DNA from: Paenarthrobacter nicotinovorans
GTDB taxonomy: Bacteria > Actinomycetota > Actinomycetes > Actinomycetales > Micrococcaceae
NCBI RefSeq assembly: GCF_021919345.1
Contig: NZ_CP089293.1
Span: forward strand, 496,001 to 560,000
DNA length: 64,000 nucleotides
Direction: 5' to 3'
A program made the translations under genes and the position numbers. This document shows positions 51,376-64,000 of this stretch, piece after piece. Within the stretch, counting starts at the first letter, position 1. Each line of letters begins with the position of its first letter. Below the pieces are notes generated by a model. It was not told the DNA's origin, searched no databases, and was given only the letters and a program-made list of their open reading frames with translations.

Positions 51376-52397
51376 CCGTAGTGAAAACACAGCAGAGCCG
51401 GAACGACGACGGCCTGGCCGCCGTCGTTCCGGCCGCAGCTCCACAGCAATTGGTCAAGCGGCGGCGCAAGCCGCTGACCTGGGACAAAGTCAGCTTCTTC
51501 GCGGTATTCCTCGGACTTCCGCTGGCGATCTACCTGTTGTTCGTGATCTGGCCGTTCATCCAGGCATTCGGCTACTCGCTGACGGACTGGTCCGGCTTCT
51601 CGCCCACACAGAACTTCATCGGCCTGGAGAACTACACCAAGATCTTCACGGACGATATCTTCATGAAAGCCATGGGGAACAACATCCTCCTGGTTATTTT
51701 CCTGCCGATCATCACCATCATCCTGAGCCTGGTGCTGGCTTCCCTGGTGACCGTTGGCGGAAGCAGCAAGGGGCAGATCAAGGGCCTCCGGAATTCCAGC
51801 TTCTACCGGGTTGTGTCATTCTTCCCGTACACGATTCCCGCGATTGCCATCGGCATCATGTGGGGGCAGATCTACGATCCTTCGGGCGGTCTGCTGAACG
51901 GCATCCTTACAGGGCTGGGTCTGGACCAGTTCAAGGACTTCGCCTGGCTGGGCAACAAGGACACTGCCATGATCGCCACGATGTTCGTGATCGTGTGGGG
52001 CTTCGTTGGCTTCTACATGGTCCTGTTCGTCGCAGGCATCAAGGGCATTCCCGCTGAACTCTTCGAAGCGGCAAGGATCGACGGCGCGGGCCGCTTCCGC
52101 ACCGCTGTGTCCATCACCATTCCGCTGATCCGGGACAACATCCAGACCGCCTACATCTACATGGGCATCCTGGCATTGGACGCGTTTGTCTACATGGCCG
52201 CACTGAACTCCGGCGGTGGTCCGGACAACTCCACACTGGTCATGGCGCAGCAGTTGTTCTTCACAGCCTTCAGCAAGGGGCAGTTCGGTCTCGCCAGCGC
52301 CATGGGTGTCGTGCTGGCCATTGCAACGCTGATCTTCTCCGGATTGGTCTTCTTGGTCAACCGGCTCACCGGCGGCGATAAGGATGTGAGCCTGTAA
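51372..52397 (+). CDS. ngcF: Sugar ABC transporter permease
   Basis: 341 residues, six helices, MalF type, with a cytoplasmic N-terminus of about 45 residues. EAA loop: GIPAELFEAARIDGAGRFRTAVSITIPLIRD. GTG 51372 overlaps the ngcE stop by 4 bases. It pairs with NgcG and needs an external ATPase such as MsiK, since no ATP-binding gene is in the operon. Confidence 0.9.
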   Translation: MTVVKTQQSRNDDGLAAVVPAAAPQQLVKRRRKPLTWDKVSFFAVFLGLPLAIYLLFVIWPFIQAFGYSLTDWSGFSPTQNFIGLENYTKIFTDDIFMKAMGNNILLVIFLPIITIILSLVLASLVTVGGSSKGQIKGLRNSSFYRVVSFFPYTIPAIAIGIMWGQIYDPSGGLLNGILTGLGLDQFKDFAWLGNKDTAMIATMFVIVWGFVGFYMVLFVAGIKGIPAELFEAARIDGAGRFRTAVSITIPLIRDNIQTAYIYMGILALDAFVYMAALNSGGGPDNSTLVMAQQLFFTAFSKGQFGLASAMGVVLAIATLIFSGLVFLVNRLTGGDKDVSL

Positions 52398-53290
52398 TGA
52401 CGACAAAAGTTTCAACTCCGGAAATGAAGTCCCTGCACTTCCAGCCGCGGACCCCGGCAACATCCACGTCCGACAAAGTGGTGGGAGCGGTCTCGCACAC
52501 TGCCCTGACCATTTGGACGCTCATTGTCATCCTGCCGTTGCTGTGGACGGTCATGTCGTCCTTCAAGACGTCCAGCGAGATCTTTGCTTCGCCGTTCGCC
52601 TTGCCGTCCCAGTGGAACCTGGATAACTACACCAAGGCGTGGAGTGAAGCAGGCATCGGAGCTGCGTTCCTGAACTCCGTGCTGGTGGTCGCTGTGGCCC
52701 TGGTGATCGTCATGGTCCTTGGCGCCATGTGTGCCTACGTGCTTGCCCGCTACACCTTCCCGGGCAGCAGGGCCATCTACTACCTGATGCTCGCCGGCCT
52801 GACTTTCCCGATCTTCCTGGCCATGGTTCCCTTGTTCTTCGTCCTGAAGAACATGGGACTGCTGAACACACTGCCCGGGTTGATTCTGGTCTACGTCGGC
52901 TTCGCGCTGCCGTTCACGGTGTTCTTCCTCTTCTCCTTCTTCAAGTCGTTGCCGCACGAAATCACAGAGGCAGCAGCCCTTGACGGTGCGGGGGAGTGGC
53001 GGACGTTCTTCCAGGTCATGTTGCCGATGGCCAAGCCGGGCCTCGCCTCGGTGGCCATCTTCAACTTCCTGGGCCTGTGGAACCAGTTCCTGATCCCGGT
53101 GTCCATCAACGCCGCCGGTCCACGCGTGCTGTCGCAGGAACTGGCGGCCTTCGCCGGCCAGATGGGCTACGCGGTGGACTTCGGGGCATTGTTCGCCGCC
53201 GTTACCGTGACCGTGGTTCCGGTGCTGATCGTGTACATCATCTTCCAGCGCCAGTTGCAGGGCTCCGTTTCACAGGGCACCTCAAAGTAG
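52397..53290 (+). CDS. ngcG: Sugar ABC transporter permease
   Basis: 297 residues, six helices, MalG type. EAA loop: SLPHEITEAAALDGAGEWRTFFQVMLPMAKPG. ATG 52397 overlaps the previous stop (TAATG). Terminator follows. With ngcEF it forms an amino-sugar importer dependent on a shared ATPase encoded elsewhere (established for Streptomyces Ngc/MsiK, inferred here). Confidence 0.9.
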   Translation: MTTKVSTPEMKSLHFQPRTPATSTSDKVVGAVSHTALTIWTLIVILPLLWTVMSSFKTSSEIFASPFALPSQWNLDNYTKAWSEAGIGAAFLNSVLVVAVALVIVMVLGAMCAYVLARYTFPGSRAIYYLMLAGLTFPIFLAMVPLFFVLKNMGLLNTLPGLILVYVGFALPFTVFFLFSFFKSLPHEITEAAALDGAGEWRTFFQVMLPMAKPGLASVAIFNFLGLWNQFLIPVSINAAGPRVLSQELAAFAGQMGYAVDFGALFAAVTVTVVPVLIVYIIFQRQLQGSVSQGTSK

Positions 53291-53314
53291 TACAACAGCG
53301 CTAAAAACAGAGTT

Positions 53315-53351
53315 CGACGGCGGTCCGCACCCCAGGTGCGGGCCGCCGTCG
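53315..53351. terminator. Hairpin terminator after ngcEFG
   Basis: 17-bp stem with one G-U type mismatch (53315-53331 with 53335-53351), starting CGACGGCGG; member of the shared hairpin family. Confidence 0.82.
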
Positions 53352-53388
53352 GGCGTTAAGGGCAGCGGGGGAGGGGGCGCGATCCGGT

Positions 53389-54303
53389 TCAGTCCCTGCC
53401 GGCCTCAATGAACTTAAGGGCGGTGTACCCGGGGTTTGTCAGGAGGACCTCGTGGCTGCCTTCCATACTGACCAGCCGGAAGACGCCCAACCTGTTTGAT
53501 AGCCGGGGGTGCCGTCCCCATTCCCCCTGGGTGATGTCGTTGTCGTCCAAAGGCGCGATGTAGCTGAACGCCTGGGGAACGCGCTCCCAACCTGTCATGT
53601 CTGCAGGGTCGGTGAATGCGCCGAAGGGCTGGGGGCGCAGTACATCGTAGATTTCCTGGGCGTGTTCGGCGCTTCCATCGTTGAAGAATCCGTCCCTCCA
53701 CACGAAGAACGGCAGGACCACCGAGCCGTCAGAGCGTTCGTCGGCGCTTGCCTGCAGGGCGGCCCGGAGGTGCGGCGGTACCTCGTCCACCAGCGCTTTG
53801 CCGTGCTCCGGCACGAACGCTGCAAAGTAGACGAGTCGTCGGATCCGTTCGGGCATTTCAATGGCGACCCTGGAGATCAGATAACCGCCCCAGCTGTGGC
53901 CCACCAGCACAAAGTCGCTGAGGTTGTGCTCCCTGATGTATTCGATGATCGGCTCGGCCGCACCGTTCAGGTTGACGTATTTGCTGTCGTTCGGCCCCAG
54001 TCCACCCGCAGTGGGGGTATGAACTTCGTGCCCTGCCGCCTCAAGGTGGGTGCGAACGGGGTCCCACATTTCGCCGTAGTGCCAAGCGCCGTGTACAAGG
54101 ACAAACTTCACCAGCGCCAGCATGGTGCCGACGAGGGGATCGTCCGTGGGGAAGAAGAGCTTATTGAATACCAGTGCAGCGGCTGTGCCGTAGAGAAAGA
54201 AGTCGTACCATTCCACTGCCGTACCGGCGAGGCTCGAAGCAGCAACCACGGGCAAGCTGGAGTGCTTTTGCTGCCTTGGCTCGGCTTTCTTCAAATCGGT
54301 CAT
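53389..54303 (-). CDS. Chimeric protein: MHS-transporter N-terminus fused to an alpha/beta hydrolase
   Basis: 304 residues. Residues 1-64 (LPVVAASSLAGTAVEWYDFFLYGTAAALVFNKLFFPTDDPLVGTMLAL) are the N-terminus and first helix of an MHS-family MFS transporter. Residues 65-304 (KFVLVHGAWHYGEMWDPV, nucleophile VGHSWGGYLIS, SMEGSHEVLLTNP with final His) form a complete soluble alpha/beta hydrolase. The GTG at 54111 is the likely original hydrolase start. The transporter's other 11 helices are gone, so a deletion has joined two neighbouring genes in frame. The product may be a membrane-tethered hydrolase. Expected control: the divergent GntR regulator. Confidence 0.85.
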   Translation of the reverse strand: MTDLKKAEPRQQKHSSLPVVAASSLAGTAVEWYDFFLYGTAAALVFNKLFFPTDDPLVGTMLALVKFVLVHGAWHYGEMWDPVRTHLEAAGHEVHTPTAGGLGPNDSKYVNLNGAAEPIIEYIREHNLSDFVLVGHSWGGYLISRVAIEMPERIRRLVYFAAFVPEHGKALVDEVPPHLRAALQASADERSDGSVVLPFFVWRDGFFNDGSAEHAQEIYDVLRPQPFGAFTDPADMTGWERVPQAFSYIAPLDDNDITQGEWGRHPRLSNRLGVFRLVSMEGSHEVLLTNPGYTALKFIEAGRD

Positions 54304-54431
54304 TGTGGGGATCCTTTTGCGATTGGGAGCGGCCGGGCTTCTTGTGAGGCGGGCCGATGTCCCAAGAAATTGAGGGGTTCCAGTGCGTGAGCGGAATCAC
54401 TTGAGCCGCCACTGAAAACTACTGTAGACGA

Positions 54432-54443
54432 GTTGTATACAAC
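54432..54443. promoter_or_regulatory. GntR (FCD) operator
   Basis: GTTGTATACAAC, a perfect 12-bp palindrome, typical of FadR-type GntR sites (core GTATAC). A second GTATAC at 54504-54509 lies near the regulator start. Confidence 0.7.
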
Positions 54444-54533
54444 CTGTCTATAGTTAGGGTTAAAGATTCTTCCAGACGTCCGGGACCCTCCTGGAGGCAA
54501 CTCGTATACTGGGCTTCGCGAGAAAGGCTCTCC

Positions 54534-55175
54534 ATGATCCAAATGACTCCCACTGCGCAATCCCAGCCCGAAGTGGCTTATCAGTGGATGAAAAGCTACA
54601 TCGCTGCCCTCCCGCGGGAGGAGGAGACGTTCCTCAACGAGGCCGTCCTCGCCAAGACCACGGGCACATCCCGTACGCCGGTACGGGAGGCCCTGCTGCG
54701 CCTCGAAGCGGAAGGCTTCGTCAAGCGGATCCCCCATAAGGGCGCGTTCGTGCCCCCAATTTCCGACCCCGATGTGCGGGCAATCCTGCAGGCCAGGGCC
54801 GTGGTGGAAAAGTGGGCCGTGTCAGCCCTGGACACCATGGCCGACGCACAGATCGACGCTTTCCAGAGCGTCATCGACCAGCAACGGGAAGCCAAGAATG
54901 ATCCCGCGCGCTTCATTGAGCTGGATACCGAGTTCCATACGCTCATGGTTCAGGCCGGCGGAAATCCGGTCCTCGCCGACTTCTACGCCTCGCTCCGGCA
55001 GAAGCAGCTGAGAATCGGCGTCAAAGCAGTGTCCCGGGGATCGGATCGCGCCGGTGATGTGCTTCGCGAACATCAACTGATTGTGGACGCCCTGCGCAGC
55101 CGAAGCCTGGAAGCGGCCCACCAAGCCATCGATGCGCACTTGGACTCCACCCGATGGGCCGTCATCGGCTACTAA
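54534..55175 (+). CDS. GntR-family regulator (FadR/FCD type)
   Basis: 213 residues. Winged HTH: LNEAVLAKTTGTSRTPVREALLRLEAEGFVKRIPHKGAFVPPI. Helical FCD effector domain follows with metal-site-like ELDTEFHTLMVQAGGN and VLREHQLIVDALRSR. Divergent from the transporter/hydrolase gene and likely its repressor. Its stop overlaps the convergent DUF503 stop by four bases. Confidence 0.92.
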   Translation: MIQMTPTAQSQPEVAYQWMKSYIAALPREEETFLNEAVLAKTTGTSRTPVREALLRLEAEGFVKRIPHKGAFVPPISDPDVRAILQARAVVEKWAVSALDTMADAQIDAFQSVIDQQREAKNDPARFIELDTEFHTLMVQAGGNPVLADFYASLRQKQLRIGVKAVSRGSDRAGDVLREHQLIVDALRSRSLEAAHQAIDAHLDSTRWAVIGY

Positions 55176-55465
55176 TCCTCGCTGTGCAACTCCCGCTGCC
55201 GTGCGCTAAGCAGCTCAAATTCAGGCCTGGCAGCCACGAAACGTTCAACGGCGTCGAGCACTTGCTGAAGGTGGGCGTGGTCAGGGGCCACCACAGCAGC
55301 GCCAATCAAAGCGCGCCGGTGCTGGTCCTGGAAGCCGGTCTCAGCTGCGGAGACCTCAAAGCGGCGCTTGAGTTCGGCGACCAGCGGCCGGACCAGCGAA
55401 CGCTTCTCCTTCAGGCTGTGAACATCGCCCAGCAGGACATCAAATTCGATCCACCCGATCCACAT
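55172..55465 (-). CDS. DUF503 family protein (YlxP-like)
   Basis: 97 residues. MWIGWIEFDVLLGDVHSLKEKRSLVRPLVAELKRRFEVSAAETGFQD is the DUF503 signature. Small ferredoxin-like fold; related YlxP genes occur near rbfA in other bacteria, so an RNA or ribosome role has been suggested. ATG 55465 (GGGG 4 bases upstream) or ATG 55474. Overlaps the GntR gene tail to tail. Confidence 0.88.
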   Translation of the reverse strand: MWIGWIEFDVLLGDVHSLKEKRSLVRPLVAELKRRFEVSAAETGFQDQHRRALIGAAVVAPDHAHLQQVLDAVERFVAARPEFELLSARQRELHSED

Positions 55466-55485
55466 AAACCCCATTCAACAGCAAC

Positions 55486-55540
55486 GCGGGGTCACTTAAG
55501 GCCCATGTCAGGGGCGTTTACGGGCCAAAAGTGACCCCGC
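55486..55540. repeat. Hairpin-forming inverted repeat upstream of DUF503
   Basis: GCGGGGTCACTT (55486-55497) and AAGTGACCCCGC (55529-55540), 12-bp perfect arms, with GGCCC/GGGCC pairing inside. Placed between two divergent genes, so probably not a terminator; may be a REP-like element or operator. Confidence 0.6.
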
Positions 55541-55670
55541 CTTGTTTGAGGTCTTGAGGGAATCTTGATCGAACGCAGCAAGGCGTCTTGAGTTCGGCCC
55601 GGCAGTGTCTATGAGGTTGGCCCAAAAGGGCCCCCGACTCATCCGCTGCTAGTTACCCAGGACTGACATC

Positions 55671-57647
55671 GTGACCCAAAACCCTGCCAGAGCCCGCGCC
55701 CGATCCCGCACCGCAGCCATACTCATCGCCTGCGCCGCCACCCTCGCGGTTTCCGCCATCACGGCCCCTACGGCTTCGGCCGGTCCCGCACAGGGAGCAG
55801 TGGTCCGGGCGTCCTCCAGCGTGTCGGCCATGGCCGGCCAGGTGGAGCAGACACTTGTGGTTCCGGTGACTGCGGGATTGGAGCCCACGCGGATCAAGGG
55901 CAGCATCGTGGTCTCCGGAAAGCCGGAAGGAACAGTCCGCGCAACGGTCAACGGCAGGATAGTCCTCGAAGCCAACGCAGCAGCAGCCATCGCCCTAAAC
56001 CAGGCAGTGAGCAGCGCAGACGTCATCAACCAACAGATGACCGTGGGACTGCAGTTCATCCCGGCGGCGCAGACTATGTGCGTCCTCTCAAACGCCACAG
56101 CCACGCTGAACAACCTCGCAGTCGATTTCTCCGGAACCGCGGAGGTTCCCACGACCGTCGGCGGGTTCTTCCCGGTGTCCGTGCCCGCCGTCGTACTTCC
56201 CGTCCCGGCGGACCCGGGTGCCGATGTTTCCGCAGCCGTCATGACTGCCGCCGCCTCGATGACGCACCGCTACCCGGACGCCTCTGTCAGCGTGGTCCCG
56301 GAAGCCGGACTTGCCGCCCGGGCGGCCGGCCTTCCTGCGGGCAGCCGGGTCCTCAGCGTCGTGGGTGACCAAGGCGAAACCAGCACCAAACTCTCCACCA
56401 CATCCGGCCTCCCGCAGCTCATCCTCAGCGGCCATGACGAACAGCTCCGTACCGCCGCGCGCGCACTGGCCAGCGACAATACAGCGCTCGCCGTGACATC
56501 GTCCGTCACCGGGTTGACGTCCGCATTGCCTGCGTCGCCCGGCCTGACGCAAAGCCTCAAGGACCTGGGCAGCAGCACCCTGAAACTCTCCGGATACGGC
56601 ACGCCGGAATCGTACGTGGGAGTCACCCAGTCCCAGTTCGGCGGTCCCGTCCAATCAGTGAAGGTCCAGCTCAAGGGCACGCACACGGCCGTGCCGGCCA
56701 ACGCCCAGGCTCAGCTTTCCGTCTTCTGGAACGATTACCTGCTTAGCTCCAGGAACCTCGACGGCGGTGACAGCTTTTCGGTGGACGCCGAAGTACCAGC
56801 CGGGCAGCTTCAGGCGAACAACGGCCTCCGGATCCGGCTCGCGGCCCTTCCCGCGGGCGGTGATTGCACCGGCCCCGCAGGTGTGATGCCCATGGAGGTC
56901 ACCGTGGACACGGCAGGCAGCACGCTGACTGCCGCCCGGGGCGGTTCCATGAAGGCCGGTTTTGCACGGTTCCCCCAGGCCCTGGGACAGAGTGTTCCCG
57001 TAGCGTTCGGCGACGGCAACGCGCAGGCAAACACCGTGAACGCGGCCACCCTGGTAGCTTCCCTGCAGCGGCAGAGCGCCACCTTGCTGGACACCCGGGT
57101 GGTGGGCCTGGATACCTTGGCCGGCTCCAGCGAGTCCGGACTGGTGGTGGGCGCCACCGGCGATGTTGCCGACAAGCTCTCGGCACCCCTGCGTTTGGCC
57201 GAGTTCCGCACCATCTCGCCGAAGGACGTCGAATACGGGGTGGGCACGTCGGCACCGTTCGGTGTCCTGGAGGCGTTCGAACAAGGCGGCCGTGATCTTT
57301 TGCTCCTCGGGGCGTGGGCACCGGACGGCGACGCTTCCGCGGCTGCGTTGCAGGCTTCCCTGACCTCGCACATCAGTGGTGTTGACGGCGGTTGGGCATC
57401 ATTGTCCCGGAACCTCCTGGTCACCCAGCCCTCGGGTACGCCGGTCTTGCTGGAAAGCAACGTGGTGGTTCCGCAGAAGGCCGTCACCGACGACTACCGT
57501 CCCTACGCCTGGTGGATCGGCGGTGCAGTGCTGGTGCTGGGCCTCGCGTTCGCCGCCCGCACCATCCTGATGCGGCGCCGGGCCAAGGAAGCTCAGGCTT
57601 ACGTGGACGCTGAACAGAAGGCGACCGAACCGGGCCATGGCAACTAG
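55671..57647 (+). CDS. BcsB-like exopolysaccharide synthesis protein
   Basis: 658 residues. Signal peptide (AATLAVSAITAPTASA), a long beta-rich extracytoplasmic part, and a C-terminal helix (WWIGGAVLVLGLAFAARTILM) with a basic tail. The layout and motifs such as FWNDYLLSSRNLDGGDSFSVDAEVPAGQLQANNGLRIRLAALP match cellulose-synthase BcsB-type proteins, which guide the growing polymer. First of a co-translated cluster (overlaps the GT-C gene by 11 bases). No BcsA-type synthase is present; the GT2 gene two on may be the synthase. Confidence 0.8.
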   Translation: MTQNPARARARSRTAAILIACAATLAVSAITAPTASAGPAQGAVVRASSSVSAMAGQVEQTLVVPVTAGLEPTRIKGSIVVSGKPEGTVRATVNGRIVLEANAAAAIALNQAVSSADVINQQMTVGLQFIPAAQTMCVLSNATATLNNLAVDFSGTAEVPTTVGGFFPVSVPAVVLPVPADPGADVSAAVMTAAASMTHRYPDASVSVVPEAGLAARAAGLPAGSRVLSVVGDQGETSTKLSTTSGLPQLILSGHDEQLRTAARALASDNTALAVTSSVTGLTSALPASPGLTQSLKDLGSSTLKLSGYGTPESYVGVTQSQFGGPVQSVKVQLKGTHTAVPANAQAQLSVFWNDYLLSSRNLDGGDSFSVDAEVPAGQLQANNGLRIRLAALPAGGDCTGPAGVMPMEVTVDTAGSTLTAARGGSMKAGFARFPQALGQSVPVAFGDGNAQANTVNAATLVASLQRQSATLLDTRVVGLDTLAGSSESGLVVGATGDVADKLSAPLRLAEFRTISPKDVEYGVGTSAPFGVLEAFEQGGRDLLLLGAWAPDGDASAAALQASLTSHISGVDGGWASLSRNLLVTQPSGTPVLLESNVVVPQKAVTDDYRPYAWWIGGAVLVLGLAFAARTILMRRRAKEAQAYVDAEQKATEPGHGN

Positions 57648-59331
57648 CGTTGCCACGCGGCGCCGCGCTGCCCACCGGCAGCCGGTGCTGCGGTCCCTGT
57701 CATCGCTGATGATCCGGGGTTGGGAACGGCTCGGCGCCCCGGTGGACGGACGCAAGGTCCCGGGCACCAGGATTGTGGCCTTGTTGGCCGCAGTGGTGGG
57801 CTACGTTGCTTGCCTGTACACCATCGGCCACGGCACCAACCTGGACTACTCCGACGCCCAAAGCCACCTGACCATCGCCCGGCGCATCTTCGACAGCAAG
57901 GCGCCCGGCTTTGAACAGCTCGGCACGGTGTGGCTGCCCATGCCCCACCTTCTGCTGGCGCCGTTCGTGGTGAACATGTGGCTGTTCAGCACGGGCTGGG
58001 CTGCGGGACTATTGGGGATCCTCGCCTTGTCCGCTACCGCCACGGGCCTGTACCTGATCGCAGCGCGCCTCGGTTTGGGCCGGGCGGGCCGCCTGGCGAC
58101 CACACTGGTGGTCCTGGCGAACCCGGCGGTCCTCTACGTTTACACCACTGCTTTGACCGAGCCCGTGCTGATCATGTGCATCGTGGGCGGCATGGCAGGG
58201 CTGGCACATTGGTCCACCAGCCGGCGTCGGATGAGCGCCGGTGAACTGGCAGTCTTTGCAGGCATTCCCTCGGCCGCAGCCGTCCTCTCCCGCTATGAGG
58301 GGTGGGCGCTGGTGATGACCGGGACGCTGTTCGTGCTGATCGTCTCCAAGCGCCGCACAGGCCAATGGCGCGAAGCCCTCACCATGGCCGGCGGCTACGT
58401 GATGATCCCTGCTGCGGCGGTGCTGTGGTGGCTTTCGTACAACTGGGCCATCTACGGCAACCCGCTTGAGTTCATGTTCGGGCAGTATTCCGCTTACGCG
58501 CAGCAGAAAAACATCACCGACGGCGGCCTGTTGCCTACCAAGGGCAACCTCGGACTGACGCTGACTACTTTCCACTGGTCGTTGCTGGAAACCGCGGGGG
58601 TGGTGGTCCTCGCCCTGGCGGCGTGCGGCGCCGTCGTGCTGGTCTTCAGGAGGGGCTTCGCGAACAGCACCCTCCTGGTGGCGGTGACCGGCAGCGCCTA
58701 TGCCTTTGCGCTGTTGAGCCTCTTCCTGGGCCAAACGGCCATCAACAATGACCACTCGCTTCCCACCACCTGGTGGAACAACCGCTTCGCCCTGACGGCG
58801 TTGCCGTTGGTAGCGGTTTTGGTGGCCGTCTTCGTGCAGGAACTGACCCGGCCGGCGCGGCTCCGGCCCTGGCTGATCTGTGCTTTGCTGGGTGCATTGG
58901 TGGTGCAGAACGTGTGGTGGAACGAGGACCCCACCGGGAGGTTGGCCGTCCTGGCGGAAGGCAGGATGTCAGCTGAATCCACCACCAACTCCACCGCCGC
59001 CGCCCGTTGGCTGAACCAGCACTACGAATCCGGCGGGATCCTGATGGACGAAAGCGCACGCGGAAACGCAGTGCTTCCAGTGATGGGCATCCCGCTCAAG
59101 GAAATCTACAACAGGGCCTCCGGCGATTACTTCGCTCCTGCGCTGGATGATCCGGCCAAGTATGCCAAATGGGTGTTCGTTAACGTCGAAGCAGGTACAG
59201 GAGCGCGGGATTCGGGCCCCACCGACCTCGTTTACCAGGCGATCATCAAGAACCCTTCCTTCGGCGTGCGCTACTCCGTCGCCTTTTCCACGCCCACGCA
59301 CCGGATCTATGAAAGGTCCTCGGATTCATGA
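57637..59331 (+). CDS. GT-C type membrane glycosyltransferase
   Basis: 564 residues, 10-12 helices. YSDAQSHLTIARRIFDSKAPGFEQLGTVWLPMPHLLL has the Asp-containing first luminal loop of GT-C enzymes (ArnT/PMT-like) that use polyprenyl-linked sugars. The C-terminal luminal part (about 450-564) is soluble. ATG 57637 lies inside the BcsB-like gene. Role: adding a sugar to the same surface polymer, inferred from the cluster. Confidence 0.82.
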   Translation: MATSVATRRRAAHRQPVLRSLSSLMIRGWERLGAPVDGRKVPGTRIVALLAAVVGYVACLYTIGHGTNLDYSDAQSHLTIARRIFDSKAPGFEQLGTVWLPMPHLLLAPFVVNMWLFSTGWAAGLLGILALSATATGLYLIAARLGLGRAGRLATTLVVLANPAVLYVYTTALTEPVLIMCIVGGMAGLAHWSTSRRRMSAGELAVFAGIPSAAAVLSRYEGWALVMTGTLFVLIVSKRRTGQWREALTMAGGYVMIPAAAVLWWLSYNWAIYGNPLEFMFGQYSAYAQQKNITDGGLLPTKGNLGLTLTTFHWSLLETAGVVVLALAACGAVVLVFRRGFANSTLLVAVTGSAYAFALLSLFLGQTAINNDHSLPTTWWNNRFALTALPLVAVLVAVFVQELTRPARLRPWLICALLGALVVQNVWWNEDPTGRLAVLAEGRMSAESTTNSTAAARWLNQHYESGGILMDESARGNAVLPVMGIPLKEIYNRASGDYFAPALDDPAKYAKWVFVNVEAGTGARDSGPTDLVYQAIIKNPSFGVRYSVAFSTPTHRIYERSSDS

Positions 59332-61283
59332 CCCCTGCTTCCCTCGTCAAAGGACAGTTCAACCGGCAGTCGATCGGCCAGACACTGCTCGCTGCAGGCC
59401 TTGTGACCCCTGAACAACTGCAGCGTGCACTGGATCGGGCCGCGATCGAAGGCGGTTTGCTGGGACGGCACTTGATCCTGGAAGCCGGGCTGGACCGGCG
59501 TCGGATCTATGAAGTGCTGGCCCGGCAGTGGGACGCCCCGCTGGTGGATCTGGTGGCCGAGCCACCAGCGGACGAACTCATGGAGCAGCTCATTTTCAGC
59601 GAGCTTGCGGAACCTCAATGGTTGCCGTGGCGCAGCGAGGACGGAGTGCTGACCGTGGCGACGGCGGTTGTTCCGTCCGCGGCAATCGCCGAGGAAGCAG
59701 CAGCGAAGTTCGGGGCCACCGACGTCGTCTTCCGCACTACGACGGACTGGGACATCAACCAATCCATCCAACGCTCCTTCAGGCGCCACCTGCTCTACGA
59801 ATCCGCTGAACGCCTGGCCGAGGAACGGCCGGGTGACTCCGCACGCATCGCGCTGACGCCGTGGCAACGGTACCTTCCTGTGGTCCTTGTAGCGGCAATC
59901 ATGGTGGCGTTCGTGATCTCGCCGCTGACGGCGGTCATCGTGCTGCTGGCTGCGGCGAACATCGTCTTCCTGATCAGCATCGGATTCAAGACGTTGGCCA
60001 GTCTCCGTCGGCCTTTCGACAAGCTCCACGAGGCGGCAGTGGTCCGGGCACGGAACAAGGAACGTGCACGACGCGGCCTTCCGCCGGTGGCCGATGAGCG
60101 GATTCCGGATTCCGAGCTACCCGTCTACACGATCCTTGTACCGGTGTTCCGCGAGGCCAACATCATCGACAAACTGCTGACGAACCTGGGGCAGCTGGAT
60201 TACCCCCGGTCCAAGCTGGATGTGCTGGTCCTCCTGGAGGAAGACGACGCCGAGACCATCGCCGCGGCCAAGGCCTCCAGGCCGCCGGAGTACGTCCGTA
60301 TCCTCATCGTTCCGCGGGGCGAGCCCCAAACCAAGCCAAGGGCGTGCAATTACGGACTGACGTTTGCGCGGGGCGAATACGTGGTCATTTACGACGCCGA
60401 GGACCGCCCTGATCCGGGACAGCTGAGGGCTTCCATTGCAGCCTTCAAACGGGATGAGTTCGAGCGGAAGCACCTGAACCCCGGCCGCAAACCGCTCATC
60501 TGTGTCCAGGCCGCGCTGAATTACTTCAACGCCGACCAGAACGTGCTCACGCGCCTGTTCACCATCGAGTACACGCACTGGTTCGATTCCATGCTCCCGG
60601 GCCTGGACAACTCCGGGATCCCGTTGCCGCTGGGCGGCACGTCCAACCACTTCGTCACCGCGCTGCTCAAGGAAGTTGGCGCGTGGGACCCGTGGAACGT
60701 GACAGAGGACGCGGACCTGGGACTTCGGGCAGCCGTGGACGGTTACCGGGTGGGTGTCATCGACTCCACAACGTGGGAGGAGGCCTGTTCACAGGTGCCT
60801 GCCTGGATCAAGCAACGCACCCGCTGGATCAAGGGGTACATGATTACCTCGGCGGTGAATACCCGGAACTCCCTGAGGTACATCAAGAGCACGGGGGTAG
60901 CCGGAACCGTAGGCTTCCTTGGCCTGATCCTCGGCACGCCGCTGGCGTTCCTGGCCTATCCGCTGGTGGTTGGATTCACCGTGGTGACCTACATCGGTTA
61001 CGACATCGTAGGCCTGGTCCTTCCCGGGTGGTTGCTGGCCGGAGGGGTGGTGTCCATGCTGTTCGGCAATGCCATGATGATCATCGTCTCCGGTGTCGCC
61101 ACCTTCCGCAGGCATGGTTGGAGGATCGCGATTTTTGCCTTGCTGAACCCGTTCTACTGGGTCCTGCATTCCGTGGCGGCGTGGCGCGCAGCCTGGCAGA
61201 TGCTGACCAGCCCCCATAAATGGGAGAAGACCCCGCACGGGCTGGAGGCGGAATACCACGACGACGGCCACTGGGTCGGGTGA
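59328..61283 (+). CDS. GT2 polysaccharide synthase with N-terminal MshEN-like c-di-GMP-binding repeats
   Basis: 651 residues. Residues about 14-75 hold two copies of the motif L-G-x-x-L-x-x-x-G-(L/V)-x(4)-L/I-x-x-x-L-x-x-A/Q (SIGQTLLAAGLV... and LLGRHLILEAGLD...), as in MshEN domains of MshE-type ATPases, an established c-di-GMP-binding module. Two helices (about 180-215) precede a GT2 domain: YTILVPVFREANIIDKLL, DAEDRPDPGQL (DxD), WNVTEDADLGLR (TED) and QRTRWIKGYM (the Q/RxxRW polymer-synthase motif). Three more helices end the chain. ATGA overlap with the GT-C gene. Processive synthesis gated by c-di-GMP is inferred. Confidence 0.85.
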   Translation: MTPASLVKGQFNRQSIGQTLLAAGLVTPEQLQRALDRAAIEGGLLGRHLILEAGLDRRRIYEVLARQWDAPLVDLVAEPPADELMEQLIFSELAEPQWLPWRSEDGVLTVATAVVPSAAIAEEAAAKFGATDVVFRTTTDWDINQSIQRSFRRHLLYESAERLAEERPGDSARIALTPWQRYLPVVLVAAIMVAFVISPLTAVIVLLAAANIVFLISIGFKTLASLRRPFDKLHEAAVVRARNKERARRGLPPVADERIPDSELPVYTILVPVFREANIIDKLLTNLGQLDYPRSKLDVLVLLEEDDAETIAAAKASRPPEYVRILIVPRGEPQTKPRACNYGLTFARGEYVVIYDAEDRPDPGQLRASIAAFKRDEFERKHLNPGRKPLICVQAALNYFNADQNVLTRLFTIEYTHWFDSMLPGLDNSGIPLPLGGTSNHFVTALLKEVGAWDPWNVTEDADLGLRAAVDGYRVGVIDSTTWEEACSQVPAWIKQRTRWIKGYMITSAVNTRNSLRYIKSTGVAGTVGFLGLILGTPLAFLAYPLVVGFTVVTYIGYDIVGLVLPGWLLAGGVVSMLFGNAMMIIVSGVATFRRHGWRIAIFALLNPFYWVLHSVAAWRAAWQMLTSPHKWEKTPHGLEAEYHDDGHWVG

Positions 61284-61396
61284 CGTACCGCACCTGATCT
61301 TGAGCCAATCTTGAGCAAATGCCGCAGAGAGGTTGAGTAAGCACCGCCACACTGAATCCAAAGCCGCAGGATGACCAGCTGAGGGGGTTGGACACG

Positions 61397-62572
61397 GTGC
61401 TCGATCCGTTCTCTGTAAGAGTCGCCCTGGGCGTCGTCACAGTAACCCTCTTGGTGTTGTTCTGTACCTCCTTCCACCGCACCCGTTCGCCGTATGCCGG
61501 TTGGTGGAGCCTGGCCTTGCTGCAATTCATGGCCGGTAACACAGCCTTCCTGCTCAACGGATCCCCGCATCAGCAATGGGCCAATCCGGTGGGAAACGTC
61601 CTGGTGGTGGCTGGAGCATTCAGCGTGTGGGCCGGAGCCCGCTCCTTGCTGGACCTCAAGACCGCACGCTGGCAACTTGCCGCAGGTCCTGTGGTCACTG
61701 CTGTTGCTTCTGTCCTCGAAAGCCCCGCCACCAATGTCTGGTCCGGGGGCTTCGTCTATCTGGCCATGATGGCCACCGGGATTGCCTTGGCCGCCCGGGA
61801 TCTTTGGCTGATCAAAGCTTCCCATTCCCAGGTCCACAAGGCGTTGTCGCTGGCAGCAGGTCTCCTGGCCACGTACTACCTGGGCCGCTTTACGGTCTAT
61901 GCACTGGAAGGGCCGGCAAGTGAGGCCTTCCGTATGTACTTCGGTCCCGGACCGTCGGGCCTGGTTTCGCTGGTGCTGCTGGTGACGGTGTCCTTCAGCA
62001 TGACGGCCCTCACCAGCGACCAACTCATCAAGGGTTTGAAGGAGCGGGCGGCCCGCGACCACCTGACCGGCCTGCTCAACCGTGGAACGTTCCTCGAACT
62101 GGCCACCACCGAGCTCCACCGTTTGTACTCCACAGGATCCGGCGCTGCCGTGGTCCTGGCAGACCTGGATCACTTCAAGGCAGTCAACGACGAATACGGT
62201 CATGGCGCCGGGGATGAGGCCTTGAAGGCCTTCGCTGCGGCCTGCGCCGCGTCCGTGAGGTCCACGGACCTCATTGGACGCTACGGCGGGGAGGAGTTCA
62301 TCCTTTTCCTGCCCGGGGCCACACAGGAGCGGGCTGAGAGCATCGCCGTCGAAATCAGCCGCCGGACCGCAGGCATGCGCACACCGGAAGGTATCCCGTT
62401 CCCCACCATCAGCTATGGAGTTACGTCCAGCATCTCTGCCGGAGCCGATCTGAACTTCATGATCGAGGTAGCTGACGCAGCGCTTTACAGTGCCAAGGCA
62501 CAAGGAAGAAACCGGATTGTAGGAGCCGACCGCCTCGAGGCGGCCACTATTGCGGATGAGGCACGATCATGA
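61397..62572 (+). CDS. Membrane diguanylate cyclase (GGDEF)
   Basis: 391 residues. Six or seven helices (about 1-210) are followed by a GGDEF domain: RDHLTGLLNRGTFL, VVLADLDHFKAVNDEYGHGAGDEAL, then GGEEF at about 297-301. GGEEF is an active-site form, so c-di-GMP synthesis from two GTP is expected. No I-site RxxD five residues ahead is clear (RSTDLIGRYGGEEF has RSTD, which fits the inhibitory site). GTG 61397 is used because GAGGGGG lies 9 bases upstream. The product could feed the MshEN-like GT2 synthase upstream. Confidence 0.92.
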   Translation: MLDPFSVRVALGVVTVTLLVLFCTSFHRTRSPYAGWWSLALLQFMAGNTAFLLNGSPHQQWANPVGNVLVVAGAFSVWAGARSLLDLKTARWQLAAGPVVTAVASVLESPATNVWSGGFVYLAMMATGIALAARDLWLIKASHSQVHKALSLAAGLLATYYLGRFTVYALEGPASEAFRMYFGPGPSGLVSLVLLVTVSFSMTALTSDQLIKGLKERAARDHLTGLLNRGTFLELATTELHRLYSTGSGAAVVLADLDHFKAVNDEYGHGAGDEALKAFAAACAASVRSTDLIGRYGGEEFILFLPGATQERAESIAVEISRRTAGMRTPEGIPFPTISYGVTSSISAGADLNFMIEVADAALYSAKAQGRNRIVGADRLEAATIADEARS

Positions 62573-63072
62573 CGCTCAATGAACTGACCACCAGGATCCA
62601 GATCCAGCACAACCAGGAGTTGTCCGTCTTCAGGAAAGACATCACCAGTGCTCCCTACAAAGCCGGAACAGCCACATCCTTGAACGCGGACCGGCGCTCG
62701 GTGCGGATGGGTCCTGTCCAGTCCGTTGAGGACGGAAACGCCAACCTGACCATCGTGGCCGATGTTGAAGGCCTTGCCTGGTTCACTGCGGACAAGGGTC
62801 TCCTGGGAAGTTGCATCACAGTATCCATCGCCGGCCACCGGCGGAACACCGGCACGCGCGTCCATCTCCCGCTCGCTGAATGCGATGCCTGGATCGAGGC
62901 CATCCTGGGCGGGTCATGGATCACAAACGTCTACCGCATGGGCAACAAGGCAAAGCCCGACGGCCGGCTGGATATCGCTTCCTATCGCTTGTTCCTGGAC
63001 GAGCACCGCAACCCGGTTCCCAAGCCCCAGGCCGTAGCCGATATGACGCTGCGCAGCCTGGACGAATCGTGA
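62569..63072 (+). CDS. Unknown protein in the c-di-GMP/exopolysaccharide operon
   Basis: 167 residues, soluble, no signal peptide or helix-rich membrane part. Coupled on both sides by 4-base overlaps between two GGDEF genes. NADRRSVRMGPVQ, followed by ANLTIVADVEGLAWFTADKGLLGSCITVSI, suggests a beta-rich fold. I do not recognise the family. It lacks the RxxxR...DxSxxG PilZ pattern, so a PilZ assignment is not supported, but the position suggests a c-di-GMP effector or partner. Confidence 0.7.
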   Translation: MTLNELTTRIQIQHNQELSVFRKDITSAPYKAGTATSLNADRRSVRMGPVQSVEDGNANLTIVADVEGLAWFTADKGLLGSCITVSIAGHRRNTGTRVHLPLAECDAWIEAILGGSWITNVYRMGNKAKPDGRLDIASYRLFLDEHRNPVPKPQAVADMTLRSLDES

Positions 63073-64000
63073 CCAGTACCAAGCCTCGCCGGCTGGTGTC
63101 CACTGATGATGACGACCCCCGAATACAAAGCCTGGAACGGCAGGTCCGGGCACTCATGCAAGAACTCCATGAGGTCCGGAATGAACGACGCTATGAGGCC
63201 CTCACCGACCCCCTGACAGGCGTCGGCAACCGGCTGGCCCTGGCCGATGCCTTCAAGGAAGCCACGGCTGCCATGGCCAACAGCATCGCCCCGCCCGCGC
63301 TGCTCCTGTTGAACCTGGACGGATTCAAGACGTTGAAGAACTCTGCGGGCCATGCGGCAGCGGACCAGGTTCTGGTCACCGTTGCCATGCGCATCCGCTC
63401 GGCAGTCCGGGAGAACGACGTCGTCACCCGCCTGGGTGGCGACGAATTCGCTGTGTTGATGCCCGGCACCCCCAAGAACCGGGCTGCCGCCGTCGGGAAC
63501 CGCATCCTGGCCGCGCTGGAACCCGGCATCGACCTCGGCAACAACAGTGTCCAGTGTGCTGCCAGCATGGGCCTGCGGATCGCCGAGCCGCACCACACCC
63601 TGGAGGACCTCCTCCAGGAAGCCGATTTCGCCCTGGAGGAATCCAAGAGCGAGGGCCGGAACAAGCTCAAGCTCTTCGATCCCGTGACCGTGCACTCCCG
63701 GCAACTCCAGCGGCAGATCGTGGGCGACCTGAGGGAGGGGATCCGCTCTGAGCAGCTGGTCCTCTATTACCAACCAATCGTTGACCTTGCCACGGGAACC
63801 ATTGAGGGTTGCGAGGCCCTGGTCCGCTGGAACCATCCGATACACGGGCTCATCATGCCGGACCAGTTCATTCCCGTGGCAGAGGCCACCGGGTTGATTG
63901 CGGAACTGGGCAGGTGGGTCCTCCGCACAGCGATGCGCCAGCTGAGGCAATGGCGGGATAACCCGGCGACGTCGGATCCCGCCTTCTCCATGCGCATCAA
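63069..64000 (+). CDS. GGDEF-EAL dual-domain c-di-GMP protein, 3' end outside the window
   Basis: GTG 63069 overlaps the previous stop; 310 codons are visible and the frame is open at the right edge. A short coiled coil (about 20-45, SLERQVRALMQELHEVRNERRYEAL) is followed by GGDEF with DPLTGVGNRLAL, LLNLDGFKTLKN and RLGGDEF (G123-F127), intact for cyclase activity. The EAL domain begins near 228 with LVLYYQPIVDLATG and E249-A-L-V-R-W, also intact in the part seen. It could make or degrade c-di-GMP. No membrane helix is visible. Its rate balance with the upstream cyclase would set the local signal level. Confidence 0.92.
   Translation, partial: MTSTKPRRLVSTDDDDPRIQSLERQVRALMQELHEVRNERRYEALTDPLTGVGNRLALADAFKEATAAMANSIAPPALLLLNLDGFKTLKNSAGHAAADQVLVTVAMRIRSAVRENDVVTRLGGDEFAVLMPGTPKNRAAAVGNRILAALEPGIDLGNNSVQCAASMGLRIAEPHHTLEDLLQEADFALEESKSEGRNKLKLFDPVTVHSRQLQRQIVGDLREGIRSEQLVLYYQPIVDLATGTIEGCEALVRWNHPIHGLIMPDQFIPVAEATGLIAELGRWVLRTAMRQLRQWRDNPATSDPAFSMRI

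Follow-up and report, generated by a model that had tools for sequence, protein, structure and literature searches.

We analyzed a 64,000-bp window (positions 496001-560000 of contig C1, NZ_CP089293.1) of the 4.48-Mb genome of Paenarthrobacter nicotinovorans, the end of which carries six plus-strand genes. As read from the open reading frames (ORFs), these encode, in order, a BcsB-like protein, a putative GT-C protein, a family 2 glycosyltransferase (GT2) with an N-terminal MshEN domain, a GGDEF protein, a 167-amino-acid (aa) orphan protein, and a GGDEF-EAL protein. We favor, with slightly better than even confidence, a reading in which the cluster specifies an MshEN-gated exopolysaccharide (EPS) synthase together with a co-regulated, private source and sink of cyclic di-GMP (c-di-GMP). 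As anatomy, the cluster is real and well supported, and its features are as follows.

55552..55592, + strand: direct-repeat element 5′ of the synthase genes (CTTGA at 55553 and 55564, third copy CTTGAG at 55587; exact match to TCTTGAGNNAATCTTGA)
55671..57647, + strand: BcsB-like protein, extracytoplasmic, with a signal peptide and a C-terminal membrane helix by eye (PF03170)
57637..59331, + strand: multi-pass membrane protein (by eye), putative GT-C (sub-threshold NF047440 only); 11-bp overlap with the BcsB-like gene
59328..61283, + strand: GT2 synthase with N-terminal MshEN (profiles, AlphaFold); 4-bp overlap with the putative GT-C gene
59370..59441, + strand: MshEN motif I, aa 15-38 (R9 to S, Q32 to A), from alignment to Vibrio cholerae MshE
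59457..59528, + strand: MshEN motif II, aa 44-67 (R38 to L, G47 to A; Q61 kept), from the same alignment
60093..61247, + strand: GT2 catalytic and membrane part, aa 256-640 (motifs in 71 sequences, structure model)
61298..61337, + strand: direct-repeat element in the GT2-GGDEF gap (CTTGA at 61299 and 61310, GTTGAG at 61332)
61388..62572, + strand: predicted membrane diguanylate cyclase gene (GGDEF; profile and active-site residues); alternative start GTG at 61397, by reading
62569..63072, + strand: 167-aa orphan protein (homologs, AlphaFold model); 4-bp overlap with the GGDEF gene
63069..64000 and past the window end (stop at C1:560526), + strand: GGDEF-EAL protein, 485 aa; 4-bp overlap with the orphan gene

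The original prediction had joined these genes by five overlaps or short gaps into one operon. The gene order is as it described, and four of the joins are overlaps (11, 4, 4, and 4 bp), but the fifth, between the GT2 and GGDEF genes, is a 104-bp gap. Because a conserved direct-repeat element sits inside this gap and also heads the synthase genes, the six genes probably form two co-regulated transcription units rather than one operon, and a single proven operon was rejected on the same ground. Since the next two large genes lie on the other strand, the cluster probably ends at the GGDEF-EAL gene; these neighbors encode AIRS and glutamine-amidotransferase domains (purL/purQ-type).

The GT2 protein matched PF13641 with 81.5 bits, and its DAED (aa 356-359), TED (459-461), and QxxRW (496-500) motifs were invariant across 71 sequences. 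Its AlphaFold model showed a BcsA-like synthase fold, with BcsA and hyaluronan synthase matching over about 350-400 residues in structure comparison. The BcsB-like protein scored 28.1 bits against PF03170 (cut-off, 21), over aa 216-400 only. Both equivalog profiles place the GT2 protein outside their families: TIGR03030 (cellulose synthase, hence BcsA membership) gave 30.6 bits against a cut-off of 699.1, and NF008411 (NfrB) gave 21.2 bits against 1170, with its best stretch in the MshEN part. The architecture of the NfrB type, a GT2 joined to MshEN with DxD, TED, and QxxRW, is present, and by sequence the protein appears to resemble NfrB in working mode yet falls outside the NfrB equivalog. 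The GT-C label stems from one match, NF047440, at 18.9 bits for a cut-off of 200, so we rejected this identity as settled. We also rejected the name "XagB", a JGI label on two homologs (PMC3609779, seen in excerpt).

At the GT2 N terminus, PF05157 (MshEN) matched aa 69-153 with 39.2 bits (cut-off, 23.1), and NF053729 ("cyclic di-GMP-binding domain, MshE-related") matched aa 16-67 with 40.0 bits, barely over its cut-off of 38. The AlphaFold model of this part is a four-helix bundle of the MshEN type, and hence the two computational checks suggested at the outset, a profile search and a structure prediction, both upheld the domain. A profile search of the genome returned 5 GGDEF, 3 EAL, 1 MshEN, and 0 PilZ matches; the MshEN match is the one on the GT2 protein, in which no PilZ was found either, consistent with the earlier claim that MshEN stands here in place of the PilZ domain of BcsA.

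The two 24-residue motifs that had been announced are present at aa 15-38 and 44-67 but are imperfect. We mapped the ligand contacts listed for V. cholerae MshE (PMC5013675, in excerpt) onto the GT2 protein by alignment. Kept were L10 (I16 in GT2), G11 (G17), L25 (L31), L29 (L35), L39 (L45), G40 (G46), L54 (I60), L58 (L64), and Q61 (Q67); lost were R9 (S15), Q32 (A38), and R38 (L44), besides a change of G47 to A53. A complete tandem RLGxx..LxxxLxxQ ligand motif was not found in the GT2 protein. A sub-threshold profile score combined with loss of the contacts had been named as speaking against the domain; the score lies above threshold, and the contacts are lost in part. Both arginines and Q32 are missing from all 13 Paenarthrobacter-type and all 6 Pseudarthrobacter-type rows (types assigned by similarity and record titles, some of which read only Arthrobacter sp.), and Q32 is also missing from the single Tersicoccus row.

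We then set these losses against a family of 121 sequences, composed of the GT2 protein of the window and the best 120 of 7601 matches. Of the 121, 39 have arginine at the R9 place, 9 at the R38 place, and 44 at one or both, which suggests that the lack of R38 is usual in the MshEN-GT2 family and that R9 is missing in two thirds of it. Glutamine stands at the Q32 place in 84 and at the Q61 place in 97 sequences (both in 65, at least one in 116). Both glycines are kept in 120 of 121, all six hydrophobic places carry L, I, V, M, or F in 110, and R57 and W68, which lie outside the published MshEN motif, occur in 119 each. The nine kept contact columns had a mean entropy of 0.82 bits; the three lost contacts averaged 2.21, and the remaining columns of the stretch 1.74.

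The MshEN domain of Escherichia coli NfrB binds c-di-GMP with a Kd of 1 ± 0.35 µM (PMC8669469, in excerpt). In our alignment, NfrB has a proline at the R9 place and no glutamine at the Q32 place, and keeps R38 and Q61. Because this measured binder shares two of the three losses, binding of c-di-GMP by the GT2 MshEN is plausible, if weaker or differently made. Changes at R9, D12, or Q32 of MshE cost at most about fivefold and hydrophobic changes more than tenfold; in the excerpt of that report (PMC5013675), these were mostly single changes, whereas the GT2 protein combines three.

The two GGDEF proteins matched PF00990 with 135 and 125 bits, and PF00563 (EAL) was also matched. In the product of gene 61388-62572, the metal, base-binding, GGEEF, and RxxD I-site residues are intact, as they are in the aligned Paenarthrobacter-type orthologs; with the roles of the metal Asp, the guanine-binding Asn/Asp, and RxxD presumed from PleD, the protein is predicted to be a membrane diguanylate cyclase with a complete active site. 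The EAL half of the gene at 63069 carries ExLxR, N, E, DDFG, K, E, and Q, which we take to be the catalytic set. In its GGDEF half, the LDxDxFKxIND of active cyclases has become LNLDGFKTLKN; the first Asp is replaced by Asn and the guanine-binding Asn by Lys in all 11 printed Paenarthrobacter-type rows, and the RxxD I-site is retained in all 11. As the EAL half is intact and the GGDEF half has lost metal and base residues, this protein is probably a phosphodiesterase and not a second cyclase; two cyclases in the cluster were rejected accordingly. A 59% GGDEF-EAL paralog elsewhere in the genome (L140) retains the canonical GGDEF residues, relative to which the cluster copy appears specialized. 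The orphan protein has 22 homologs, the organism-named ones all from Paenarthrobacter or Arthrobacter, and a mean column identity of 81% over 21 sequences; its AlphaFold model is confident, with no clear fold match.

The direct-repeat element reads CTTGA-N6-CTTGA-N17/18-TTGA, which places the last TTGA 33-34 bp after the first copy, and was found 5′ of bcsB at 12 of 12 and in the GT2-GGDEF gap at 13 of 13 Paenarthrobacter-type loci. The exact pattern CTTGANNNNATCTTGA occurs five times in the genome, at the heads of both units and at three other promoters. In eight Paenarthrobacter genomes, the exact pattern was found 37 times and the control not once. All of the 31 copies examined lie at five orthologous promoters: those of the bcsB unit (7 copies), the GGDEF unit (6), a 912-aa LuxR-type regulator (7), a 57-aa peptide (5), and a DUF1206 membrane protein (6). 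Element sites are also catalogued at L124-L126 and L135-L137, besides the two in the window. The LuxR-type protein (L136:3254-5992) matched PF00196 over the cut-off and AAA profiles just below theirs, and its gene is preceded by an array of four 11-bp repeats by eye. It is possibly an autoregulated or relay regulator, linked to the element so far only by the site in front of its gene. The 57-aa peptide has one apparent membrane helix; in the genome of the window, a weak Hpt gene (23.7 bits; cut-off, 24.6) is divergent from the peptide gene.

Twenty-eight further genomes, 22 of the genus that lack a full-length GT2 ortholog and 6 of the Pseudarthrobacter type, held 24 exact sites in 14 genomes (1-3 each; control, 0). 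A tblastn search with the five Paenarthrobacter target proteins gave no match at any of these 24 loci, so we rejected the element as strictly EPS-linked. Nine downstream ORFs picked from the 24 sites comprised two Peptidase_M73 proteins (camelysin family; TasA equivalog at 21.8 against 450 bits for one), one SipW-type protein (TIGR04089, 131.9 against 60 bits), three Hpt-like proteins (35.8, 24.7, and 18.2 against 24.6 bits), a GH26 protein, an MFS protein, and one without a match over cut-off. CTTGA pairs were present within 600 bp 5′ of the bcsB match at 6 of 6 Pseudarthrobacter-type loci and at 0 of 4 other loci with bcsB (L061, L062, L065, and L069). The Hpt genes near the element hint at a phosphorelay, and its 11-bp period presumably resembles that of OmpR/PhoB-family sites.

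Conservation of the cluster was assessed in 77 loci (76 matched loci and the window), with c-di-GMP enzymes counted within the fetched flanks. The closest GT2 match among the matches listed is from Paenarthrobacter histidinolovorans (96%). The bcsB, GT-C, and GT2 genes occur together at the Paenarthrobacter-type and Pseudarthrobacter-type loci (except on the short contig L046), in Glutamicibacter, and in Tersicoccus. Every complete Paenarthrobacter-type locus (12 of 12; contig L046 ends within the GGDEF gene) has genes for c-di-GMP enzymes in its flanks, as do 1 of 2 Glutamicibacter loci and the single Tersicoccus locus, compared with 5 of 54 GT2 loci without an MshEN match. The linkage of c-di-GMP enzymes to MshEN-GT2, which comes from three lineages, is thus suggestive, and among the loci examined MshEN-GT2 is more widespread than this linkage. 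Because full-length GT2 orthologs were found in 4 of 37 genomes of the genus as delimited by the search tool (including that of the window), the cluster is accessory. A class-wide draw of 296 genomes gave 24 with a GT2 match at E ≤ 1e-60, 7 of which, again with the window's, extend over the MshEN part.

In the reading that we favor, a BcsA/NfrB-like processive GT2, its external BcsB-like partner, and the putative GT-C membrane protein would make and extrude a polymer, presumably an exopolysaccharide, and the N-terminal MshEN would sense c-di-GMP and turn synthesis on. The second co-regulated unit would provide the Paenarthrobacter lineage with a private switch for the synthase: the membrane cyclase, with its product-inhibition site, as source; the EAL phosphodiesterase as sink, its degenerate GGDEF half perhaps serving as a sensor of GTP or c-di-GMP; and the small orphan protein, which may tether or tune the two enzymes. 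One transcription factor acting on the tandem CTTGA repeats (11-bp spacing) may turn on both units. The original prediction of direct gating by the operon's own messenger thus gains from a genuine MshEN on the synthase, the BcsA-like fold, and a complete adjoining cyclase, but is weakened by the eroded ligand site, the probable phosphodiesterase in place of a second cyclase, the division into two units, and the 6 of 6 Pseudarthrobacter-type loci without a cyclase in their flanks.

Several further observations weigh against the favored reading. Three of the four polar or stacking ligand side chains, both stacking arginines and one glutamine, are gone together, and Q61 itself is replaced by His in 3 of 13 Paenarthrobacter-type rows (L046, L049, and L059). 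NfrB lacks two of the three side chains lost here but retains R38, unlike the GT2 protein. The lost side chains, together with an arginine at either place in only 44 of 121 family members, fit a rival in which the MshEN of the Arthrobacter group no longer binds its ligand and is now structural or a docking site. The c-di-GMP signal would then act via another receptor, e.g., the GGDEF-EAL protein through its degenerate GGDEF half, in which RxxD is retained in all 11 rows. Precedents exist for both parts, as XpsE lost binding (PMC5013675) and the degenerate-GGDEF receptor PssE of Listeria is essential for EPS (PMC4125290; both in excerpt). However, in XpsE both glycines and several hydrophobic residues are gone, whereas the glycines are nearly invariant here, and NfrB binds despite two of the same losses. 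The low entropy of the kept contacts also speaks against lost binding, although it may fit a ligand constraint or a fold constraint alike, since conserved cage residues may reflect folding. We regard this rival as unlikely, with a chance that deserves serious weight.

Further points against the favored reading concern the private switch, the repeat element, and the division into two units. Outside the cluster, the genome has two more cyclase genes, one GGDEF-EAL gene, and one EAL gene, so that the c-di-GMP pool need not be private; the cluster cyclase has a 54% paralog elsewhere and thus belongs to a paralog family. Pseudarthrobacter-type genomes encode 50-53% cyclase relatives unlinked to the synthase, only 1 of 7 of which has a CTTGA pair within 500 bp 5′, and all 6 loci of this type, each with an eroded MshEN-GT2, lack c-di-GMP enzymes in their flanks. 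Such enzymes are likewise absent from the flanks of all 13 more distant MshEN-GT2 loci (several on short contigs; the MshEN match of L067 is weak and partial). With one mismatch allowed, CTTGANNNNATCTTGA has 13 genome sites against 8 for the reversed control, and only the exact copies stand out. No terminator and no sigma-70 promoter was recognized in the 104-bp gap, so the genes could still form one long operon. The c-di-GMP and EPS genes could be mere neighbors in one biofilm regulon, without direct gating, given that both units share their element with three further promoters and that Pseudarthrobacter-type loci manage without the GGDEF, orphan, and GGDEF-EAL trio. We hold this to be improbable, as the only MshEN found in the genome is on the GT2 protein, no PilZ was found, and the GGDEF-EAL copy is specialized relative to its paralog. 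It is also very doubtful that the GT2 protein is no processive EPS synthase and acts instead, together with the putative GT-C protein, in decorating a cell-wall glycopolymer or a lipid-linked intermediate: the invariant QxxRW, TED, and DxD motifs, the BcsB-like partner, and the long structural matches to BcsA and hyaluronan synthase all argue against it.

For the gating of a GT2-MshEN protein by a dedicated cyclase, a precedent exists in E. coli, where DgcJ activates NfrB (PMC8669469; this and the reports below are used in excerpt). The same source describes an NfrB homolog of Eggerthella lenta, a Gram-positive species, and notes that in most pseudomonads nfr has a GGDEF gene as its neighbor. 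The cluster shares with NfrB-DgcJ the GT2 with MshEN, the DxD, TED, and QxxRW motifs, and the dedicated, in pseudomonads neighboring, cyclase. It differs in that MshEN lies at the C terminus of NfrB but at the N terminus here, that only NfrB keeps R38, that NfrA is an outer-membrane partner whereas a BcsB-like and a putative GT-C protein are found here, and that the cyclase unit here adds a phosphodiesterase and an orphan protein. With BcsA-BcsB it has in common the GT2 fold with a transmembrane part, the BcsB-like partner, and the proposed gating by c-di-GMP; MshEN replaces PilZ at the opposite end, and the putative GT-C protein belongs to the cluster here. The tandem 24-residue motifs in a four-helix domain with an alpha/beta subdomain recall the N-terminal domains of MshE/PilB-type ATPases (PMC5013675), but there is no ATPase here, three ligand side chains are lost, and R57 and W68 lie outside the published motif.

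Such circuits had been called little studied in this Gram-positive lineage, which is tempered by E. lenta NfrB and by two EPS operons under c-di-GMP: Bacillus subtilis ydaJKLMN, on which the membrane cyclase DgcK acts locally (PMC7064775), and Listeria pssA-E, with its I-site receptor PssE (PMC4125290). In both of these, the receptor (YdaK or PssE) is encoded apart from the synthase, whereas the candidate receptor here is fused to the synthase, and the degenerate GGDEF half could, as with PssE, also serve as one. In excerpts of two further papers searched for MshEN, PMC13232838 and PMC12564702, the domain comes up only through E. coli NfrB or a citation of the MshEN paper. Among the matches listed from the open-access literature, we found no paper on the present synthase, nor any actinobacterial BcsB-linked synthase with N-terminal MshEN that shares its promoter element with a cyclase/phosphodiesterase unit.

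MshEN-GT2 is a natural candidate for a c-di-GMP output in Arthrobacter-type soil bacteria because it carries the sole MshEN or PilZ copy found in the genome (the receptor search covered these two domain families genome-wide and riboswitches within 52000-64000). Should the Arg-less pocket prove to bind, the MshEN motif as published would be too strict, and presumed non-binders would deserve re-examination. The promoter element, being conserved, offers a handle on the regulator of matrix production in the Arthrobacter group. More speculatively, and with little expectation that it will hold in full, one could imagine an actinobacterial matrix program in which a single, perhaps phosphorelay-driven, regulator acts through CTTGA repeats on a synthase gated by an Arg-less MshEN with its own source and sink and, in some relatives, on TasA/SipW-type surface proteins; GT-type MshEN would then be a distinct ligand-reading class, with near-invariant R57, Y61, and W68 possibly replacing Arg stacking.

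Two minor observations concern the flank of the cluster. An inverted repeat (GCGGGGTCACTT...AAGTGACCCCGC) at 55486-55540, 5′ of the BcsB-like gene, was visible in 4 of 12 aligned loci (L013, L045, L060, and L064) and not in the other 8; within the window, GGGGTCACTTNNGG matches exactly at its two arms and nowhere else, and the repeat is perhaps a small mobile or REP (repetitive extragenic palindromic)-like element. Farther upstream, the minus-strand ORF 53389-54303 is chimeric, its first 67 residues matching MHS/shikimate-type transporters and the remainder an alpha/beta hydrolase. In the fetched flanks of 11 relative loci searched for these parts, the hydrolase was found in 0 and the transporter start in 7, and by sequence the ORF suggests a transporter gene that underwent a replacement or an insertion.

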